Below are positions 4,102 to 21,068 of a DNA stretch of 21,068 nt, one piece after another; the first letter of the stretch is position 1; each line of letters starts with the position of its first letter. The position numbers were made by a program, and so were the translations under genes. This DNA comes from a virus: positions 1-21,068 of IMG/VR virus record IMGVR_UViG_3300001851_000500. The stretch is one strand, 5' to 3'. The notes under the pieces are model-generated. The model was not told where the DNA came from and did no database searches. It worked only from the letters and a program-made list of their open reading frames with translations.

Positions 4102-4833
4102 TTATTGGGAGGGTATTAATCCTTTATTTTGGCAAGCTATAATAAAGTTTTTTGTAAGGGAACTTCTGATAATATCATCTGGGGTAAAATTTATTTCACT
4201 GAATTCGGGCATGGTTCTGGCTACATCTAGGAATTTGGATAGGCCTGAGGTATCATTTTTATTTTTTATAAGATCATTTTGGAACAGGTCACCGCAAATT
4301 ATTATTTTTGATCTATAGCCGACTCTGGTCATTACTGCGGATAGTTCCATCCAGGAGAGGTTGGCTGCTTCATCGACTATTAGGATTGCATCATCAAATG
4401 TTCTGCCTCTGATAGCGGTAGTGGATATAAAATCTATATGGGATTGTTCACATAATCTTTGCCATGCATCTTTTCTGGAGAATAATGTTTTACAAATATC
4501 GATATAAGGAGTTTCATACATTGCCATTTTTTCTTCGAGTGTACCTGGTACAAATCCTTGGTCTCTAACTTGGACAGCGGAACGTATTATAACAACTTTT
4601 TCGAAGCTATTTGCTTTATCTAATACTTCTTCTAAACTTTTCAATAATGCTAAAAATGTTTTACCTACGCCTGGGCTTCCTAGAAGTGCAATAAAATAAT
4701 CACCTCGTTTATACAATTCGAAGAATTTTTTTTGGTTATTTGTTAGTGGATCAAATGTTTGTAAATCATCTATTTTTATTTTTAGGTGTACATTTCCTTT
4801 AGGAGTACTAATTGATTCTGTTTTTTTAGTCAT
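4102..4833 (-). CDS. phoH: PhoH-like ATPase
   Basis: P-loop NTPase of the PhoH family (243 aa). Walker A is GSPGVGKT at residues 52-59; Walker B is ILIVDEAAN with D154-E155; CGDLFQND further on fits the sensor region. The conserved Q of the PhoH N-terminus (TNNQKKFFELY, about 30-41) and the R-x-A-V-Q segment are present. PhoH proteins are ATPases with RNA-helicase-like folds; in phages of phosphate-poor waters the gene is very common, though its role in infection is not settled. It overlaps the GIY-YIG gene by ATGA, so translation is coupled, and it ends the nucleotide-metabolism operon. Confidence 0.93.
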   Translation of the reverse strand: MTKKTESISTPKGNVHLKIKIDDLQTFDPLTNNQKKFFELYKRGDYFIALLGSPGVGKTFLALLKSLEEVLDKANSFEKVVIIRSAVQVRDQGFVPGTLEEKMAMYETPYIDICKTLFSRKDAWQRLCEQSHIDFISTTAIRGRTFDDAILIVDEAANLSWMELSAVMTRVGYRSKIIICGDLFQNDLIKNKNDTSGLSKFLDVARTMPEFSEINFTPDDIIRSSLTKNFIIACQNKGLIPSQ

Positions 4834-5231
4834 AATTTACCTTTTACATGAGATTTGTGTATTTTGCAGCTACACCAAGAATTATACCAATCATCTGATA
4901 ATAGACATTTATTTTTAAATATTTCCCATGTTTCCATATATGAACATGTGGCTCTTGTTTTGCATAGATGGAGAATTATTCTTGTAAAATTTTCTTTTCC
5001 AAATTTTTTTATATCATTTTTAAGTTCATCTGATGATGACCAATAATTTTCCCAATCGCTAGGTTTACGAATTTTTTTTCGTTTACCTTTAATTTGTTTT
5101 GTTGATGCTTTGGAAAAATATTTACGCCCTATATACGATTTATTTGTAAGATTATTACGGATAATATAAACGAATCCATAATAACCTTCTGTTTGATCGG
5201 CTGTAAATGGTACTAAATTATAAATCCACAA
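4830..5231 (-). CDS. GIY-YIG nuclease-like protein (133 aa)
   Basis: The GIY-YIG core is seen at residues 17-39: GFVYIIRN for the GIY half and SYIGRKYF for the YIG half, then RKPSDWENYWSSSDEL, KKFGKENFTR and a METW segment that places the catalytic Glu region. This form occurs in many T4-like phages and is annotated there as Seg-like. Whether it is a homing nuclease or a domesticated resolvase-like enzyme is not known. The gene starts with TTG immediately after the stop of the zinc-ribbon gene; M-W-I-Y as an N-terminus agrees with relatives I recall, and GAGAG lies 7 bases upstream. The start is therefore well placed though the codon is rare. Confidence 0.8.
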   Translation of the reverse strand: MWIYNLVPFTADQTEGYYGFVYIIRNNLTNKSYIGRKYFSKASTKQIKGKRKKIRKPSDWENYWSSSDELKNDIKKFGKENFTRIILHLCKTRATCSYMETWEIFKNKCLLSDDWYNSWCSCKIHKSHVKGKL

Positions 5232-9097: not shown

Positions 9098-10261
9098 TTA
9101 TTTTTCGGTTGGTTCATAGTATGAATCATTTCTTTTTGTAAACTTCGGTTTTAAATGTGTCATAAAAGAAATACTATATCTTTTTTCTTGAAAAGGAACT
9201 ACTGGTACCACATAATGTTCAAGGGTTGCGGGGAATAATAATAATATTCCTTCTCTAGGCTGTATAGAATAACTACCACCAAAATAAAAATTTTTATCAT
9301 ATTTTTTAGATAATGTCAATCGTTTTGCTACATTAGCAGGATCAATCAATATTAGTGATGATGAATTTTTTTTACCTTGATTATATAATTTTACATAAGA
9401 ATCACAATCAAAATCATCTAAATTCATAGTATCACTTCCTATACTTTTTGGATAATATACACCAGTCCAAAATGAGTTATGTTCTGCATGTATATGAGGA
9501 TGTGACCAACCGCCTTCTTTGAATACAACAACACTCCAAAAATTATTAACAATAACATTTTCCTTAAGTTCTTTTTTAAAATGTGTCATATCCAATAAAG
9601 AACTAATAGTTGAACCTACAAGTTTTCTAAGAACTCTAAATGAATTATATCTCACTTCAAGACCAAATTTTGATTGCCATGAACAATCATTATCACCAAA
9701 TGATCTTTTATGTGTTTCAACTTCAGACATTTCATTATCAATATCATTTACTAGATTTTTATTTAATTCTCTACTCATTTCACCAAAATTAACTACAGCT
9801 AGAGGTGAAGGAAAAATAGATAATAAATTTAACTGTGGATTTTTGTTCATTATTTTTTCCTCAAAAAATTTCAATTGACTACTATAAGGATTTTGTTCCT
9901 TTATATTAGCATATTCTAACCATTGTAATATTTTAATATATTTTTCTTCTACATTACCATCAAGTATTGATGATATTCTATTTCTTAGGGTACAGAATAT
10001 ATATACAATTTCTTCTGTTTCATTTCCTATTAAATCTTTTATTTGTTGTCTATCAATATTTAATTTTATTGAATTCTTATAATATTCTGTTCCGTAAATA
10101 GAATGGAATAATCCAGCTTTTTGTTCTGAAATACTTCTTCCATAATTTTTTAGAATTTGACTTGTACCAATTAAATGATCAAGTAAAGTTTTTCCTGAAT
10201 GTGGAAGTTTATCTGCACCTATTTGCTTTAAAAAATCAATTTCTTTTTCAAAATTATTCAT
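9098..10261 (-). CDS. DUF6817 (HD-like) + 2OG-Fe(II) oxygenase fusion (387 aa)
   Basis: The N-terminal part (about 7-95) has DKLPHSGKTLLDHLIGT and AGLFHSIYGTEYY with H21, H29 and H53. This matches the DUF6817 family, an all-helical HD-phosphohydrolase-like domain. The C-terminal part (about 148-370) is a 2OG-Fe(II) dioxygenase of the Oxy_5 type: HPHIHAEHNSFWTGVYY (H254-H261), LLFPATLEHYVVPV with distal iron ligand H349, and R361 in KRYSISFMTH for 2-oxoglutarate. It would hydroxylate or oxidise an unknown substrate. It overlaps the MazG-like gene by 8 bases (ATGAATAA). The fusion is unusual to me; the neighbours suggest nucleotide or DNA-base chemistry, not proven. Confidence 0.82.
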   Translation of the reverse strand: MNNFEKEIDFLKQIGADKLPHSGKTLLDHLIGTSQILKNYGRSISEQKAGLFHSIYGTEYYKNSIKLNIDRQQIKDLIGNETEEIVYIFCTLRNRISSILDGNVEEKYIKILQWLEYANIKEQNPYSSQLKFFEEKIMNKNPQLNLLSIFPSPLAVVNFGEMSRELNKNLVNDIDNEMSEVETHKRSFGDNDCSWQSKFGLEVRYNSFRVLRKLVGSTISSLLDMTHFKKELKENVIVNNFWSVVVFKEGGWSHPHIHAEHNSFWTGVYYPKSIGSDTMNLDDFDCDSYVKLYNQGKKNSSSLILIDPANVAKRLTLSKKYDKNFYFGGSYSIQPREGILLLFPATLEHYVVPVVPFQEKRYSISFMTHLKPKFTKRNDSYYEPTEK

Positions 10262-15402: not shown

Positions 15403-15410
15403 TATTTATT
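15403..15410 (-). promoter_or_regulatory. T4-type late promoter (AATAAATA)
   Basis: Minus-strand AATAAATA 28-35 bases before the ATG of the 113-aa virion protein, overlapping the end of the preceding gene. One mismatch to TATAAATA. Spacing to the gene matches the other two late promoters here. Confidence 0.5.
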
Positions 15411-16485
15411 ACATATTTCTCATAATTTGTGTATTTAATTCTGGTTCAGATTCAAATTTTTCATCTGAATTTATTTTTTTACCTTTTGTTTGTTTTTCAG
15501 TGTTTTTAACAACTCCTCTGAAAGCCAAAGACTTTTTTGCTGGTGTTTGTATATCATCATTTTGTTCTGTTACTTTTCTACGTGCTGCCATTTTTGCTAA
15601 ATGTTTTACACGTGACATTGCTGTATGTTTTGCACCAGATTTATCAACAACAGGCGTTTGTATTTTTTTCCAAGGTTTTTCAACTTTCCAAGAACCTTTA
15701 GAATCACTCGAAGTATCATTACTTTCAGACACACCTTGCTTTTCTGCTTGCTTTTCACCTTGCTTTTCTGCTTGCTTTTCACGTTGTTTTCTTGCTGCAA
15801 TTTGTGCAAGTTTTGTTGCAAGAATCTTGTGCCCACGTGATTCATTAGTCATAGAAATAACTTCTTCACTAACTTGTGCATCTTTCATGATACCACGAAC
15901 AAGAGGTGCTTTCAATTGTTTGTGTCGTGGTACTGCAATATGTTTTTCTGATTTTGGATGTGTATACACATCATGACTGCCTTTTGTGCGAGTCAATGAC
16001 CAACCAGATTTTCTTAGATGTTTATGAACTGCACGTGTATCCATATTTGCACCAGGCATTTCTTCAATCTGTTCAACCTCCTCATTCTTTGGTGTTGCTT
16101 GAGGTGCAGATTTGTTTACCGATTTCGCAGGTGCAGAAGTGAATTTACCATCAACAGCTTCACGATCTTTTTCTGGTTTATCAGATACAAATTGTTCACC
16201 AACAGGAACACAGTTAGGAACTTTTCTACCATTCTTTTCTTTCATACCAATAGCAGTATAACCTTTCCAGCAAGCATCTTTCAACTTGCTGGTAGGTTCT
16301 TTTACTTCTTCTTTTACATGTTCATAACCCATGCGTTTGTATTTTTCAGCAGCAGTAGCTACCACACGAAGTTCTTTACCTGAATCTTTATGACGAACAG
16401 TTATAACTTTTTCTTTATTATGAACAGAACCGTCAGGAGATGATTCCCTTATGCTCTGAATGATATCATAAAACTTTTTAGTCAT
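15409..16485 (-). CDS. Putative internal-head polyprotein with HicA-like module (358 aa)
   Basis: AAGGAG before the ATG at 16485 decides this start; the frame is open further up but only over the previous gene. The first residues MTKKFYDIIQSIRE, then S, resemble a T4 capsid-targeting peptide ending in I-x-E. Modules follow: residues 15-60; CWKGYTAIGMKEKNGRKVP at 72-90, a block shared by many aquatic phage proteins; linker EEVEQIEE at 135-142; a HicA-like domain at 149-202; VSEE at 205-208; then a basic Lys/Gln region with tandem EKQAEKQG and a Lys-rich tail. I infer a precursor packaged in the head and cut by the prohead protease. No phage annotation of this kind is known to me. Confidence 0.7.
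   Translation of the reverse strand: MTKKFYDIIQSIRESSPDGSVHNKEKVITVRHKDSGKELRVVATAAEKYKRMGYEHVKEEVKEPTSKLKDACWKGYTAIGMKEKNGRKVPNCVPVGEQFVSDKPEKDREAVDGKFTSAPAKSVNKSAPQATPKNEEVEQIEEMPGANMDTRAVHKHLRKSGWSLTRTKGSHDVYTHPKSEKHIAVPRHKQLKAPLVRGIMKDAQVSEEVISMTNESRGHKILATKLAQIAARKQREKQAEKQGEKQAEKQGVSESNDTSSDSKGSWKVEKPWKKIQTPVVDKSGAKHTAMSRVKHLAKMAARRKVTEQNDDIQTPAKKSLAFRGVVKNTEKQTKGKKINSDEKFESEPELNTQIMRNM
15735..15782. repeat. Two identical 24-bp tandem repeats in coding sequence
   Basis: Units 15735-15758 and 15759-15782 are identical, each made of two similar 12-mers. They encode the EKQAEKQG repeat of the 358-aa protein. Unit length is a multiple of three, so copy number can change without a frameshift. 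Confidence 0.85.
15880..16041 (-). other. HicA-like RNase toxin domain inside the 358-aa protein
   Basis: Residues 149-202 follow the HicA/YcfA pattern: HLRKSGWSLTRTKGSHDVY with the catalytic-type His of GSH (H171), HPKSEKHIAVPRHKQL with the VPRH strand end, then a helix VRGIMKDA. HicA domains have a dsRNA-binding fold and cut mRNA; the partner antitoxin HicB is not encoded next to it. The domain is bounded by an EEVEQIEE linker and a VSEE sequence, so cleavage would free it as a peptide of about 65 residues. Confidence 0.7.
16060..16083 (-). repeat. EEVEQIEE linker, copy in 358-aa protein
   Basis: It codes residues 135-142 and ends in I-E-E before Met. At DNA level it is a close match to the linkers at 16637, 17405, 19186 and 19390. 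Confidence 0.7.
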
Positions 16486-16486
16486 T

Positions 16487-17599
16487 TCACTTTTCTCCTT
16501 TAGCAATCTTTGTAGCGGTAGCGTAAAGAACTTCTTTACCACGGTTGCCATAACGCTCTTTAAAGCCAGCAAGATTTTTCTTCATACTCTTTACAACTTT
16601 TTCACGCTTATCCATTTCTGGTTCAGTCAATGTGCGTTCTTCAACTTGTTCAACTTCTTCATTCTTTACTGATTGAACAGATGCAGCAGCAATATCTGCT
16701 TTCTTATTTTTACCAGAGTCTTTTTCTTTCTGTGCTTCAACTTCTTTTGTGAAAGTTTCGTTATCAACTTCCTCTTTTACAGAATTATAAAGTTTTGCTG
16801 CGGATTTATGATCTAAAAATCCTGAATGTGCTGGTTTACCGTCAACATGAACCATATGATTACCACCAATAGAATTCCATTCCACTTTTTTACCTTGTTT
16901 GTTTTTTACACTGGCGATAGCCATTTCTTCAATATCATCAGCATCTTCAACAATTTGCATATCTTCCATTATAGATTTTAATCCACCTGTTTTGTATGAA
17001 TCAATCAAATGTGAAAATTGTTCTTTATATACTTTAGTGTTATATCTACGTTTAAATGTTCCTTTGGGACGACCACGACCACGTTTTTCTGGCTGTGCAG
17101 GTTTATCATCGGCATCATCTTTTCCTTCTGGATCTTCATAGTCTGCACCATATGATTTACCTTTGATTGTACGTTTTGGCAAATCTGCTAATTTGATTTC
17201 ATCAATTTGTTGAACTTGTTCTTCAACTGATATAGTACTAACAAGTTTACCAATCTTATTACCATCATAACTATGTGAGTTTGTTTCTTTACCATGAACA
17301 CCTTCACCTGTATGATGAATCATTCCATTTTTAACATGAACTCGTCCAGATCCGTATGCGTCTTTCATTGCTTTTACATGAGCATCTGGTATTTTTATTT
17401 TTGCTTCATCAATTTGTTCAACTTCTTCTTTTGCTACTTTTTTGCCTGCACGAAGCAATTTGAAATCATGTGCATCAACTTTGTTGTTATTGTTTGCATC
17501 AATTTTGTGTTGATTACCCTTTAATTCTTCATTAACTTGTCCTTCCATAACTTTCGTTACAGCCTTTGCTACATCACGTAGTTGTTTATTGTTATACAT
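16487..17599 (-). CDS. Putative internal-head polyprotein with AT-hook and EF-hand-like loop (370 aa)
   Basis: AAGGAG six bases before the ATG at 17599 fixes the start. Modules in order: helix 1-27; calcium-loop-like DANNNNKVDAHDF at 34-46 (D, N, N, K, D, D at positions 1, 3, 5, 7, 9, 12, as in EF-hand or dockerin loops); linker EEVEQIDE at 58-65; an His/Gly-rich module 66-125; linker QVQQIDE to 134; AT-hook KRGRGRPKG at 172-180; IEE at 223-225; a small beta module with WNSIGGNHMVHVDGKPAHSG at 241-260; linker EEVEQVEE at 314-321; and a C-terminal helical block MDKREKVVKSMKKNLAGFK, RYG, VLYATATK, known from many aquatic phage proteins. Probably packaged and processed in the head; the AT-hook should bind AT-rich DNA. 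Confidence 0.7.
   Translation of the reverse strand: MYNNKQLRDVAKAVTKVMEGQVNEELKGNQHKIDANNNNKVDAHDFKLLRAGKKVAKEEVEQIDEAKIKIPDAHVKAMKDAYGSGRVHVKNGMIHHTGEGVHGKETNSHSYDGNKIGKLVSTISVEEQVQQIDEIKLADLPKRTIKGKSYGADYEDPEGKDDADDKPAQPEKRGRGRPKGTFKRRYNTKVYKEQFSHLIDSYKTGGLKSIMEDMQIVEDADDIEEMAIASVKNKQGKKVEWNSIGGNHMVHVDGKPAHSGFLDHKSAAKLYNSVKEEVDNETFTKEVEAQKEKDSGKNKKADIAAASVQSVKNEEVEQVEERTLTEPEMDKREKVVKSMKKNLAGFKERYGNRGKEVLYATATKIAKGEK
16637..16660 (-). repeat. EEVEQVEE linker, copy in 370-aa protein
   Basis: It codes residues 314-321. The last three residues are V-E-E, a weaker version of the I-x-E cleavage type. Followed by the KSMKK module. Confidence 0.6.
17060..17086 (-). other. AT-hook motif coding segment
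   Basis: Residues 172-180 read KRGRGRPKG, with the R-G-R-P core that inserts into the minor groove of AT-rich DNA. Flanked by an acidic/Pro stretch before and KRRY after. Confidence 0.7.
17198..17221 (-). repeat. EQVQQIDE linker, copy in 370-aa protein
   Basis: It codes residues 127-134, ending in I-D-E before Ile. It is the most diverged linker of the set but keeps QxQQIDE. Confidence 0.65.
17405..17428 (-). repeat. EEVEQIDE linker, copy in 370-aa protein
   Basis: It codes residues 58-65, followed by Ala, giving I-D-E then A: the best match in the window to the T4 gp21 cleavage rule (I or L, any, E, then A or G). Confidence 0.75.
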
Positions 17600-17619
17600 G
17601 TAAATCTCCTTTTTGAATA

Positions 17620-18909
17620 TTAAATTGTATGTTCTTGCCAAGACAATGATACAATAGCATCATCGTTGTTTGTTGTTGGTTCTACTGCAATTGTCAATAT
17701 GTCACCATTTGCTTGATTAATGGTTTTTGTTAATTGCAAAGTATGATTAAACGATTTGGTTAAATCAAATGGAGCAACAGTATCTTGACCTTTAAATAGC
17801 CCTTCAAAAACTACTTCGCCACCAGTCAATGCTGAAGCTGAAATATCATATTCAACCGAACTTACAGAATCAACTGTTGTCCACGATGCACCAGTTAATG
17901 AAGTGACATTTCGCATAACATAGAATTTATATGCAGTTGATTGAAGTCCATAAAAAGATATCATTGATGGTACAACAACAGAATCAGTTCTACCATCACG
18001 CAGTCTAATACTCACCATAGGATTTCTAATTGAATTGGCTAGATTCTTTCCTGTGATTGGATTAGATGCTGATCTACTTAATGATACTTGATTATATCCA
18101 CCCTCTGACATTACAACTGAGCATATCTTACGCATCAAACTGCCTGATGTTGTATTTCCATTATTGTTTATTTCATATCTTAACGGTAAACATGCTGTCT
18201 GCATGTATGTGGAAGTACCTAAATTTGCATGATGGAATACATGTGCAATATGCATTTGACCATTGATTACGAAACCACATCGAACAGAGCCGACACCTAA
18301 CCATTCCAAATCTGTCCAGAATATTTGTGATTTAGTTAAATCTAATGTAAGACCACTTGGACCATTACCATCAAAGGTATCAACATTCCAATTCGTTTGT
18401 ATTATTGTATTATTATTAACACTTCCTGTTGAAATACTTCGCATAACAATATATGCTGAACTATCAGTTTGTTCTAGATATATACCATTATTAGAACTGT
18501 AATAACCTATTCTTTGTGTGAGATTTGCTTTTGGTTCTGCAAATGTTGCAGTCATCATTATCAATAATGATTTACCTGGTTGATAAGGAAATGTTTTTTT
18601 AGTTTCATATAAAATGGAATCAGAGGATGCTGTTCCCAATGTCATATGAACACAACCCTCATTGTTCGCAAAAACTACAGATGAATTACCGGTGTTTGCA
18701 TAGTTCCATCTTGTTCCTGAAATTCCAAATCTATCAAAAGATTCAAATAATGTATGTGGTTCACCCACACGCAAACGACCAAAACTATCTACAGAGGTAC
18801 CACCAGTACCACCCGCTAGATTACCATACTTGTCAGCCAACATCACCACTTCATAAATGGTTTTGTTGTTATTTAAATAATCGTTTGTCTGTGTGCTAAA
18901 CTGTGTCAT
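17620..18909 (-). CDS. Virion structural protein (429 aa)
   Basis: The block GGTSVDSFGRLRVGEPHTLF near residues 36-55 is one I know from structural proteins of many aquatic phages and related prophages. The rest is beta-rich, with repeated Ser/Thr/Asn strands, FWTDLEWLGVGSVRCGFVI in the middle and a Trp/Glu end (VSLSWQEHTI). There is no Cys cluster or coiled coil. It may form part of the head surface, neck or a fibre; I cannot tell which. It lies between two polyprotein-like genes, so it belongs to the late virion transcript. The start at 18909 has only a weak GGA upstream. Confidence 0.8.
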   Translation of the reverse strand: MTQFSTQTNDYLNNNKTIYEVVMLADKYGNLAGGTGGTSVDSFGRLRVGEPHTLFESFDRFGISGTRWNYANTGNSSVVFANNEGCVHMTLGTASSDSILYETKKTFPYQPGKSLLIMMTATFAEPKANLTQRIGYYSSNNGIYLEQTDSSAYIVMRSISTGSVNNNTIIQTNWNVDTFDGNGPSGLTLDLTKSQIFWTDLEWLGVGSVRCGFVINGQMHIAHVFHHANLGTSTYMQTACLPLRYEINNNGNTTSGSLMRKICSVVMSEGGYNQVSLSRSASNPITGKNLANSIRNPMVSIRLRDGRTDSVVVPSMISFYGLQSTAYKFYVMRNVTSLTGASWTTVDSVSSVEYDISASALTGGEVVFEGLFKGQDTVAPFDLTKSFNHTLQLTKTINQANGDILTIAVEPTTNNDDAIVSLSWQEHTI

Positions 18910-18912
18910 GTA

Positions 18913-19677
18913 TCAGCAATTCCATTTACGCAAGGCTTTATTGATTCGTGAATCTGGATCACGTGCAGTTTCAGAAGATGTTAATTTTTCTTTCATTCCA
19001 CTCATCCGACTACAAAATGATTTACGTCGATTAGCTGCTTTTGAACCGGGTTTCAATTTACTAGGTTCTGTTGTAACTGCTTTTGAAAGTTTTGATCCTG
19101 GATGCTCACGACGATATGAATCAATACCTTTCTGATTTAAACCACCAGATTCAGATTTACCTTCTTTACGTTGCCAAGCAGCAACTTCATCAATCTGTTC
19201 AACTTCCTCATCCATTTTATAACCACGCTTTTTCAAGTCAGTAACAACATCTTCATGTGATTTACTGTGTTGTTCTTTCTTTTTTGTTTTTGTGTGTTCA
19301 ACTTCATAGTTATATCCGCCTTCGCCGCCTTTGTGCCAGATATATGCCTTACCGTGTTCTGGGTGTCTTACAATACCAACGAGTTTAACTTCATCAATCT
19401 GTTCAACTTCTTCTTTAATATGCCCATACTTTTTCTTGTACCAATCAGGCATTCCATTTTTTTGTCGCCAGTATCTAACTGTTGCGGAATCATTTGCTTG
19501 ATCACGATATTTGTTTTCTGCATCAGTATTATGATTTTTCATTGCTTCCGCTGCCTTATGTGCATCTTTAGCAATATATTCTAATTGTGCATCAGTTTTT
19601 TTGTGGTAATCATGACCCTCAAGAGGATGTCTCTGAGATGGTCTACCTTCAGATATATGTTGTTTTAGGGATTTCAT
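18913..19677 (-). CDS. Putative internal-head polyprotein with capsid-targeting peptide (254 aa)
   Basis: The N-terminus MKSLKQHISE, then G, has the length and form of the T4 capsid-targeting sequence (compare MKTYQEFIAE, then A, in T4 internal proteins) and ends in I-S-E. Module 1 (11-88) is His/Lys/Ala-rich with RYWRQKNGMPDWYKKKYGH. Linker EEVEQIDE at 89-96. Module 2 (97-156) is a small beta domain with YIWHKGGEGGYNYEVEH. Linker EEVEQIDE at 157-164. Module 3 (165-254) matches DUF6321: AAWQRKEGKSESGGLNQKG, YRREHPGSKL, RRKSFCSRMSGMK, DPDSRINKALRKWNC. I infer packaging in the prohead and cutting into three peptides. The start shares an A with the upstream TGA. Confidence 0.75.
   Translation of the reverse strand: MKSLKQHISEGRPSQRHPLEGHDYHKKTDAQLEYIAKDAHKAAEAMKNHNTDAENKYRDQANDSATVRYWRQKNGMPDWYKKKYGHIKEEVEQIDEVKLVGIVRHPEHGKAYIWHKGGEGGYNYEVEHTKTKKKEQHSKSHEDVVTDLKKRGYKMDEEVEQIDEVAAWQRKEGKSESGGLNQKGIDSYRREHPGSKLSKAVTTEPSKLKPGSKAANRRKSFCSRMSGMKEKLTSSETARDPDSRINKALRKWNC
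18916..19185 (-). other. DUF6321-like C-terminal module
   Basis: Residues 165-254 of the 254-aa protein. It is basic, with single conserved Cys residues in SFCSRM and at the C-terminus (KWNC). I know this module as a stand-alone or fused domain of phage proteins, function unknown. It begins exactly after the second I-D-E site, as expected for a released product. Confidence 0.7.
19186..19209 (-). repeat. EEVEQIDE linker 2 in 254-aa protein
   Basis: It codes residues 157-164, followed by Val. Nearly identical in DNA to the linker at 19390-19413. Confidence 0.75.
19390..19413 (-). repeat. EEVEQIDE linker 1 in 254-aa protein
   Basis: It codes residues 89-96, followed by Val. Same eight residues as the copies at 19186 and 17405. 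Confidence 0.75.
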
Positions 19678-21068
19678 CAGAAATTTCCTCTCTTTGTTTT
19701 AAATGTTTGTAAACTAATACCTTGTTTTTGCAGTTCATCGGTTTTTTGATCACCAATACTTGCACCCGTTTCATCACCTGTCAATTCAGTAACAGCCTTA
19801 CCAGTTTTTCTGTCTATCTTTTCTTTATTATATCCTGCTAATGGCATACCGACTTCGGTACCAAAATCAATTTCGTTTATTTTTTCTTTGTTTTGGTAGT
19901 TTTCTGTTTTGATGATACTTTCTTTTTTACTGTTGGTGTTTCTACCGATTGTGGTTCTTGTATTACAGGTTGTTTCTTCTTGAATAAATTTTTCAGTATT
20001 GATAACATCTTCGTTCTCCGTTAGTTTAACATAATAACCATTAGGAACTTTCACTACTTCTCCTTTTTTTGTATGTGCTTCTTTTGCTGCTTCTTTTCTT
20101 AATATGAATTTTCTTGGTTTTCCAAAACGATCTAAAATATATTTACATTTTTCCATTTCTTCTTTAATTATACCTGTACCAAGAGTCAATAAATTAAAAG
20201 CAGAAAAATCAGTTAAAGATTTTTGTTCTTCAACTTTTTCTTCTTCATCCTCAGATTTGATTAAATGCAAAGTTTTTTTCAATTCTTCTGGTGTATCAGC
20301 TTGAATTGTAAATGTAACAGCTTCAGTTAAGAACATTTCTAATTCTGTATCAACATCTTCTTTTTTGATATCTTTTGGTAATTTTGAAGATTGTTTTGCT
20401 TTTTCAAATTTTTCTTTTTGTTTTGTACCATACTGCATTGAAGGTGTATATTTAATATCACTTGATTTTTCAGGCTGTTTATATTGACCAACTTTTACAA
20501 GTTTATCATGAACTGAATGATATGTAACTTTTCCATCTGTTCCATATCGTCCAAATCCATAATATTGTAAACCCATTTTCATCGCTTCTTCATATGCAGA
20601 TGAATTAGTATTTACTGACAATTCAGATTGTTTTTGTGGTACAACCAAATTTTCCTTTTTGTTTAATTCGGTTGCAATCCAAGAAGTTGCTTTTTCATTT
20701 TTTACTGGTTTTTGTGTAAATTCTCTAATTTTTTTGAAGATTTGCATTTGTTCTTCTTGTTTTGCATCTTTAATTTCTGGTGAAGCAACCCTCAAATCAT
20801 CAGAATTATCATATTCAATATAATTATTGCGAAATAATTTAGCATATTCTGGTCTACTTTCCTGAACACCATCCCATTTTGATTTTCTTATTTTTTCAGG
20901 TACAGTTCTACCACCACGTTGTCCACGATCAATATTTCTTTGTTTTGATACTTCATCAGAAGTTAAAACACAAACCATTGATGTTTCATATCCAAGTTCT
21001 TCTAGTCTTTTTTTAATTTTTGCTATTTTATTATGATCATCACCTGTTCCATTAATAATCAATCCATT
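19677..21068 (-). CDS. Kinase-like multi-module phage protein, 5' end cut by window (463 aa visible)
   Basis: The frame is open to the right edge, so the true start is outside; an apparent TTG start at 21062 is not convincing because NGLIINGTGDDH runs straight through it. The visible first 90 residues look like the second half of a P-loop kinase (zeta-toxin-like or polynucleotide-kinase-like): LIINGTGDD strand, CVLTSDEVSKQRNIDRGQRG as a lid-type R-x-x-R helix, and WDGVQESRPEYAKLF. The Walker A would be in the missing part. Next are a YYGFGRYGTDGKVTYHSVHD module (about 169-188), and FLTEAVTFTIQADTPEEL (about 246-263), with L-T-E then A, a good prohead-protease-type site. The tail is Lys/Glu-rich and flexible. 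Substrate unknown. Confidence 0.72.
   Translation of the reverse strand, partial: NGLIINGTGDDHNKIAKIKKRLEELGYETSMVCVLTSDEVSKQRNIDRGQRGGRTVPEKIRKSKWDGVQESRPEYAKLFRNNYIEYDNSDDLRVASPEIKDAKQEEQMQIFKKIREFTQKPVKNEKATSWIATELNKKENLVVPQKQSELSVNTNSSAYEEAMKMGLQYYGFGRYGTDGKVTYHSVHDKLVKVGQYKQPEKSSDIKYTPSMQYGTKQKEKFEKAKQSSKLPKDIKKEDVDTELEMFLTEAVTFTIQADTPEELKKTLHLIKSEDEEEKVEEQKSLTDFSAFNLLTLGTGIIKEEMEKCKYILDRFGKPRKFILRKEAAKEAHTKKGEVVKVPNGYYVKLTENEDVINTEKFIQEETTCNTRTTIGRNTNSKKESIIKTENYQNKEKINEIDFGTEVGMPLAGYNKEKIDRKTGKAVTELTGDETGASIGDQKTDELQKQGISLQTFKTKRGNF

Follow-up and report, generated by a model that had tools for sequence, protein, structure and literature searches.

The virus record IMGVR_UViG_3300001851_000500 was analysed over its complete length of 21,068 bases (hereafter the window), and three of its proteins, P0001, P0002 and P0003, in which compact modules are joined by a linker of the EEVEQIDE kind, were found probably to be head-cargo polyproteins, that is, T4-type internal proteins with several small, mostly basic modules per chain. 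A sequence-only reading of the same DNA had proposed that these precursors enter a T4-type head, where a gp21-type protease cuts them at IxE. The proposal is now partly supported, because a T4-type targeting N-terminus was found, because linker and targeting-peptide boundaries proved equivalent, because relatives carry gp21, gp22, gp23 and fitting capsid sites, and because related proteins were detected in virions by mass spectrometry (MS). Beyond these observations, we infer that the window's own proteins are targeted to the head, cut at their linkers, housed within it and injected.

Three predicted precursors built from unrelated modules and one type of linker

The three proteins of 254, 370 and 358 residues and their six linkers were confirmed as first described, and all lie on the minus strand. 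The slash in a sequence marks the predicted cut, and pLDDT is the predicted local distance difference test score of AlphaFold.

18913..19677, minus strand: P0001, 254-residue precursor with targeting sequence, RPSQRH module, linker, middle module, linker and DUF6321 module
19648..19677, minus strand: N-terminal capsid-targeting-like sequence MKSLKQHISE of P0001, predicted cut before Gly11
19414..19647, minus strand: RPSQRH module of P0001, residues 11-88, basic, isoelectric point (pI) 9.5 without linker
19390..19413, minus strand: first linker of P0001, EEVEQIDE/V, with residues 85-105 at pLDDT below 50
19210..19389, minus strand: swappable middle module of P0001, residues 97-156, replaced by unrelated modules in relatives that keep the flanking linkers
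19186..19209, minus strand: second linker of P0001, EEVEQIDE/V, with residues 154-180 at pLDDT below 50
18916..19185, minus strand: C-terminal DUF6321 module of P0001 (PF19846, E=4e-17), which also ends S-SCSM1_29, an annotated virion protein
16487..17599, minus strand: P0002, 370-residue precursor with four predicted mature modules
17405..17428, minus strand: linker EEVEQIDE/A of P0002, after the EF-hand-like module
17198..17221, minus strand: linker EQVQQIDE/I of P0002, before the IKLADLP module (contexts of the module ending [ILVM]xE, 7/7)
16637..16660, minus strand: linker EEVEQVEE/R of P0002, before the C-terminal EMDKREKVVKSM module (16/16 contexts)
15409..16485, minus strand: P0003, 358-residue precursor with N-terminus MTKKFYDIIQSIRE/S, CWKGY module, linker, HicA module and KSGAKHT region
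16060..16083, minus strand: linker EEVEQIEE/M of P0003, before the HicA module (HicA contexts ending [ILVM]xE, 16/16)
15874..16032, minus strand: HicA-type RNase toxin module of P0003, residues 152-204 (PF07927, E=3e-12; pLDDT about 90)

The six linkers have the form E(E/Q)V(E/Q)Q(I/V)(D/E)E, with one strict copy only in P0003, and none arose in 20,000 shuffles of the three proteins, so that none is expected by chance. They are followed by V, V, A, I, R and M, the residues that the sequence-only reading had listed, and the modules that flank them are mutually unrelated, as it had also held. The description of the proteins as neighbours applies to P0002 and P0003, which are adjacent, but not to P0001, which is separated from P0002 by the 429-residue P0005. 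Named Pfam families within the precursors were limited to DUF6321 at the end of P0001 and HicA inside P0003, and the PHROG matches of the modules were of "unknown function" except for the HicA-type toxin family. The HicA module, whose histidines H171 and H176 are invariant in alignment A2, is the only module with a clear predicted activity.

Cutting at the sites used here would yield nine mature pieces and three N-terminal peptides, close to the "at least ten" small peptides foreseen earlier. With a pI of 8.5-10.4 when the linker is disregarded, the predicted pieces resemble the T4 internal proteins in being basic. Confidence in the AlphaFold models was low overall (mean pLDDT 57 and 55). The HicA domain scored close to 90 and the P0001 linkers under 50, and the linkers are predicted to be unstructured.

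Linker and targeting-peptide boundaries are of one kind

The pattern [ILVM]xE was found at a fixed residue before the RPSQRH module in 43/43 distinct upstream contexts, and likewise before the HicA (16/16), EMxKRE (16/16), KWAQ (10/10), IKxADLP (7/7) and YDYEGDMA (22/26) modules. In the control with shuffled module flanks, it reached at most 15-57% at any position. The boundary signal was weak for some modules (EF-hand-like, 47%; CWxGY, 26% at one fixed offset) and for the DUF6321 core (18% at best), in the last case because the anchor sits far inside the module.

One and the same module occurred in two kinds of upstream context, after a targeting sequence in MKSFKQYLEE/VKKPTGELKDACWKGY and after a linker in RNEEVEEIDE/VKKPTGELKDACWKGY, and the RPSQRH module behaved similarly (MKNFKTFITE/GRPSQ and KEEVELTE/GRPSQ). 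By these sequences, the linker and the targeting-peptide boundary are sites of one kind. After removal of near-duplicates, the residue before the cut (P1) was Glu in all contexts and P3 was I, L, V or M except in three with Thr, never A; P2, P4 and the positions further upstream varied. Conservation of P1 and P3 together with freedom at P2 and P4 indicates a protease-site signature rather than a docking motif or a plain spacer.

The linkers, acidic and predicted to be unstructured, could nevertheless be flexible spacers within multi-domain internal virion proteins that remain uncut except for the N-terminal peptide; whole proteins would also be compatible with virion presence, cleavage being a prediction. 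We regard this explanation as unlikely, as it gives no reason for Glu at P1 and an aliphatic P3 with free P2 and P4, nor for the fact that linker and targeting-peptide boundary replace each other at one and the same residue. Still less probable is that EEVEQIDE recruits modules to the prohead by docking to the gp22 scaffold or to the inner face of the capsid, with IxE secondary. Conservation does reach EEVEQ upstream of IxE, and linkers of the EEVEQIDE type predominate, but many boundaries consist only of (I/L/V/M)xE without EEVEQ (TLQE, FISE, NLEE, VSE, IRE), and a binding motif should preserve P2, P4 and upstream residues. Docking could also coexist with cleavage.

The residue after the cut (P1') was G in 43/43 RPSQRH contexts, G or A (or S) at many boundaries, and V, I, K, R or M at others, the latter group being found after linkers and after some targeting sequences too. 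The relaxed P1' preference that had been thought necessary therefore suits the V, I, K, R or M after linkers, but not the many similar boundaries with G, A or S.

Modules are exchanged at the linkers

For comparison, 145 related loci were fetched, and 156 linkers of the EEVEQIDE kind were counted in 110 of their frames. The loci draw on a common stock of modules in varying order. In the alignment of P0001, the first and last modules were retained in most rows and the middle ones were unrelated sequence, and linker residues E89, E92, D95 and E96 were invariant. The linkers are joints for swapping modules between phages.

Since swaps occur exactly at linkers, and linker codons are somewhat more uniform than others (GTT 79% vs 52% elsewhere), the linker might serve chiefly as a site of DNA recombination through which modules are shuffled, and have no role at the protein level. 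We give this explanation very little credence, because 66 different DNA sequences were found among 89 linkers and the P3/P1 amino-acid pattern is kept far beyond DNA similarity. With linker DNA so diverse and the codon bias mild, selection acts mainly at the protein level. A viral-contig scan with P0002 gave no confirmed relatives; blastp within the fetched loci did give relatives.

N-terminal sequences of the capsid-targeting type

The N-terminus of T4 IPIII and IPII is MKTYQEFIAE/A, of which gp21 removes the ten-residue targeting sequence; within it, residues 4 and 7 serve targeting and residues 8 and 10 processing (PMC9026906). Replacing the P1 Glu by Asp stops processing in T4 and leaves targeting intact (PMC9026906). 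The start of P0001, MKSLKQHISE/G, matches this capsid-targeting decamer ending in (I/L)xE, and relatives start with MKNFKTFITE/G or MKTFKSFIVE/G before the same RPSQRH module. Altogether, 94 distinct decamers of the targeting type start proteins in the related loci. By sequence, the putative targeting peptide is clear in P0001 and divergent in P0002 and P0003.

A regular expression for the decamer was fixed on 13 near-complete genomes before it was used on S-CREM2. It matched 82/756 first-Met M[KR] starts vs 16/2118 internal ones (p=1e-33, only a guide as the sequences are related). In T4, only IPII, IPIII and gp61.1 were matched. In S-CREM2, matches were limited to 4/219 proteins, and 4/4 belong to the set of 52 virion-detected proteins (Fisher p=0.003). 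The S-SCSM1 matches were a virion-detected NMN-adenylyltransferase, one undetected small protein and a frame within a tail-fibre gene. Virion and other proteins of S-CREM2 were not separated by the loose pattern [ILVM]xE[AGST] in the first 20 residues (p=0.57), and a search for the targeting core at any position up to residue 40 gave p=0.06; the full decamer alone separates virion proteins.

The uncharacterised T4 gp61.1 (NC_000866.4, 18966-19130) starts with a perfect targeting decamer, MKTFKEFIKE/D, after which, by eye, it resembles the mature N-terminal arm of gp23; on its sequence, it may be an unrecognised packaged protein.

In one related locus (L070, genome G008, 173878-174420), a HicA module directly follows a targeting peptide and a short linker (MKSFTQFINE/EVEILDE/MPGANMDTRAVHQ), an arrangement that suggests a HicA toxin as packaged cargo. 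Targeting-peptide proteins in many loci (e.g. L104, L111, L084) resemble nucleotidyltransferases (GRFQPPTTGH), HAD-type phosphatases (LHMFDVDDTLFHT) and the HMEHLEDLVFNEGV family, and proteins of these three types are candidate injected enzymes.

Related modular proteins are present in cyanophage virions

The window's own phage is known as a metagenome contig, and the virion data all come from relatives. In S-SCSM1, for which MS gave 45 virion proteins (PMC9602691), the record marks as virion proteins ORF29 (open reading frame 29; CWDGY and DUF6321 modules), ORF89 and ORF92 (linkers EEVENVDE/R and EEVELDE/R) and ORF91 (MKSFLQFLKE/A). The virion-detected proteins tabulated for S-CREM2 (PMC10665884) include the modular gp137 and gp160 and, with a targeting sequence, gp6 (SAM hydrolase), gp13, gp14 (kinase) and gp154 (cytidylyltransferase); a cytidylyltransferase was also reported in S-SM1 virions by Sullivan and colleagues (PMC3037559). 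In S-SZBM1, MS detected the modular ORF139 and ORF140 (MRFRQFIIE/A), as well as ORF190, which resembles P0005, and ORF136, which resembles the small head-type protein P0006 and occupies the same place. The nucleotidyltransferase adjoining the modular proteins is also virion-detected in published cyanophage proteomes.

Within S-CREM2 (OR473000, locus L257), targeting-type N-termini were noted on the virion-detected gp6, gp12 (Cas9-like nuclease), gp13 (small) and gp14 (APH-type kinase), the stretch in gp12 being LRFASFMAE/A at residues 17-25. Such N-termini would account for the entry of these proteins into the head.

Head protease and capsid genes of relatives

T4-type gp20, gp21, gp22 and gp23 were found in 13/13 near-complete relatives, and in 13/13 the capsid-protein maturation site, aligned to T4 FLTE/A, was (L/I/M)xE/(A/T). 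The comparison of capsid sites with I/L-x-E, which the sequence-only reading had named as a test for this phage, brought no refutation in these relatives.

The idea that cargo proteins commonly bear a copy of the capsid-protein N-terminal arm was unsupported in the 13 genomes. As a separate observation, the virion proteins S-CREM2 gp160 (L259) and S-SCSM1_97 (L281) each include a segment that resembles the mature N-terminal arm of the capsid protein of the same phage (GFTGAAAPEGPVAGYDPLM; GGFTGSSAAEGPTAGYDPLM).

Proposed pathway and points against it

As the match to the T4 targeting sequence suggests, the N-terminal peptide would bring the chain into the prohead core. There, judging from the site pattern, a gp21-type protease would sever it behind the Glu of (I/L/V/M)-x-E, once where the targeting peptide ends and again at every linker of the EEVEQIDE type. 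The modules would then stay with the packaged DNA, probably inside the head, relatives having been found in virions by published MS. By analogy with T4 IPI and Alt, they would enter the host, and early activity there is conceivable for HicA, kinase or nucleotidyltransferase modules. A broader version, for which we hold the case to be evenly balanced, is that aquatic T4-like phages possess an open-ended cargo platform in which effectors (a HicA RNase, modules of NMN-adenylyltransferase and kinase type, and many of unknown fold) are chained by a protease-cleavable joint behind one targeting peptide, freed in the head and co-injected, the joint serving as the point of effector exchange.

Several observations weigh against processing of head-cargo polyproteins. 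The strict T4-type decamer is missing from P0002 and P0003 (P0003 starts with MTKKFYDIIQSIRE/S). At linkers, P1' (V, I, R, M) is unlike the A/T of capsid sites, the constancy of P1' and P2' within a module family is partly due to homology, and the conservation of EEVEQ exceeds the needs of a bare (I/L)xE site. The window covers only 21 kb of the phage, whose own gp21 and gp23 fall outside the record. The S-CREM2 decamer test is based on four proteins, S-SCSM1 ORF30 has a targeting-like start yet was undetected in the virion, and the published virion tables give coverage only, with no peptide-level sign of a linker cut.

Comparison with known packaged proteins

Single cargo proteins with a targeting peptide (T4), multi-domain injected polyvalent proteins and multi-site cutting (SPN3US) are already known. 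T4 IPI, IPII and IPIII share with P0001 an N-terminal targeting peptide of 10 residues that closes with (I/L)xE, and with all three precursors a small, basic and diverse cargo; T4-type head genes are shared by the relatives. They differ in being single-module proteins with one cut, whereas here unrelated modules are chained by a repeated, internal, cut-like linker. T4 Alt is likewise a packaged enzyme that is targeted, cut by gp21 and injected, but it is one enzyme and not a module chain.

For phiKZ gp175 and SPN3US gp245, the head protease similarly cuts internal (inner-body, ejection) proteins after Glu, sometimes at several motifs per protein (PMC10052503). The SPN3US motif, however, is AxE with Val at P4, in contrast to the P3 described above, and 13/14 sites serve the removal of N-terminal propeptides, not the release of several mature cargo modules (PMC10052503). 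The polyvalent proteins of Iyer and colleagues 2017 (PMC5512222) are chains of effector domains that travel with DNA, by packaging or by transfer, and that were proposed to be processed into pieces, and they share with the precursors the presence of several unrelated domains per polypeptide. They differ in having a built-in zincin-like metallopeptidase; Pfam and PHROGs scans of P0001, P0002 and P0003 found no peptidase family, and the cut-like sites of the precursors fit a prohead protease.

In the open-access papers searched, no description was found of T4-like phages that chain unrelated cargo modules by one standard joint of the (I/L/V)xE type, a literature search on capsid targeting sequences in cyanophages turned up no head polyprotein, and searches for EEVEQIDE and DUF6321 as text returned no paper. 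If correct, the proposal would extend the T4 cargo strategy from single proteins to polyproteins. It would also offer a shared explanation and a testable mechanism for a large set of unnamed virion proteins of aquatic and cyanobacterial T4-like phages, whose DUF6321, CWKGY, RPSQRH and similar modules are nearly all of "unknown function" in databases. The targeting-peptide pattern would then be a simple rule for predicting packaged, probably injected phage proteins, covering the HicA toxin module and, in S-CREM2, the SAM hydrolase and the Cas9-like nuclease.

Genes around the precursors

The neighbours within the precursor locus are as follows.

19677..21062, minus strand: P0004, C-terminal part of a zeta/AAA-kinase-type protein, truncated by the contig end (PF06414, E=1e-5)
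17620..18909, minus strand: P0005, 429-residue head-class virion structural protein ("head and packaging"; phrog_1645, E=2.6e-111), between P0001 and P0002
15034..15375, minus strand: P0006, small head-type protein (phrog_613, E=0.009)

P0004, assigned by Pfam as a kinase-type C-terminal part, lies upstream of the precursors, and its sequence includes FLTE/AV; at the same locus, the related genome G009 encodes a protein starting MKAYTQFLKE/LPSKKVV...GRFQPPTTGH. Downstream of the precursors are the small head-type protein, DUF7207, holin, endolysin, primase, thymidylate synthase and both ribonucleotide reductase subunits. The locus is syntenic with the near-complete relatives, with gene order in agreement, and the order also agrees with that of the cyanophages S-SCSM1, S-CREM2 and S-SZBM1 as judged by annotated genes.

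Elsewhere in the window, a small protein encoded at 4830-5231 carries the PHROGs label "NAD synthetase" and also matches homing-endonuclease families (E=1e-11), and at 9098-10261 DUF6817 is fused to a 2OG-Fe(II) oxygenase domain.

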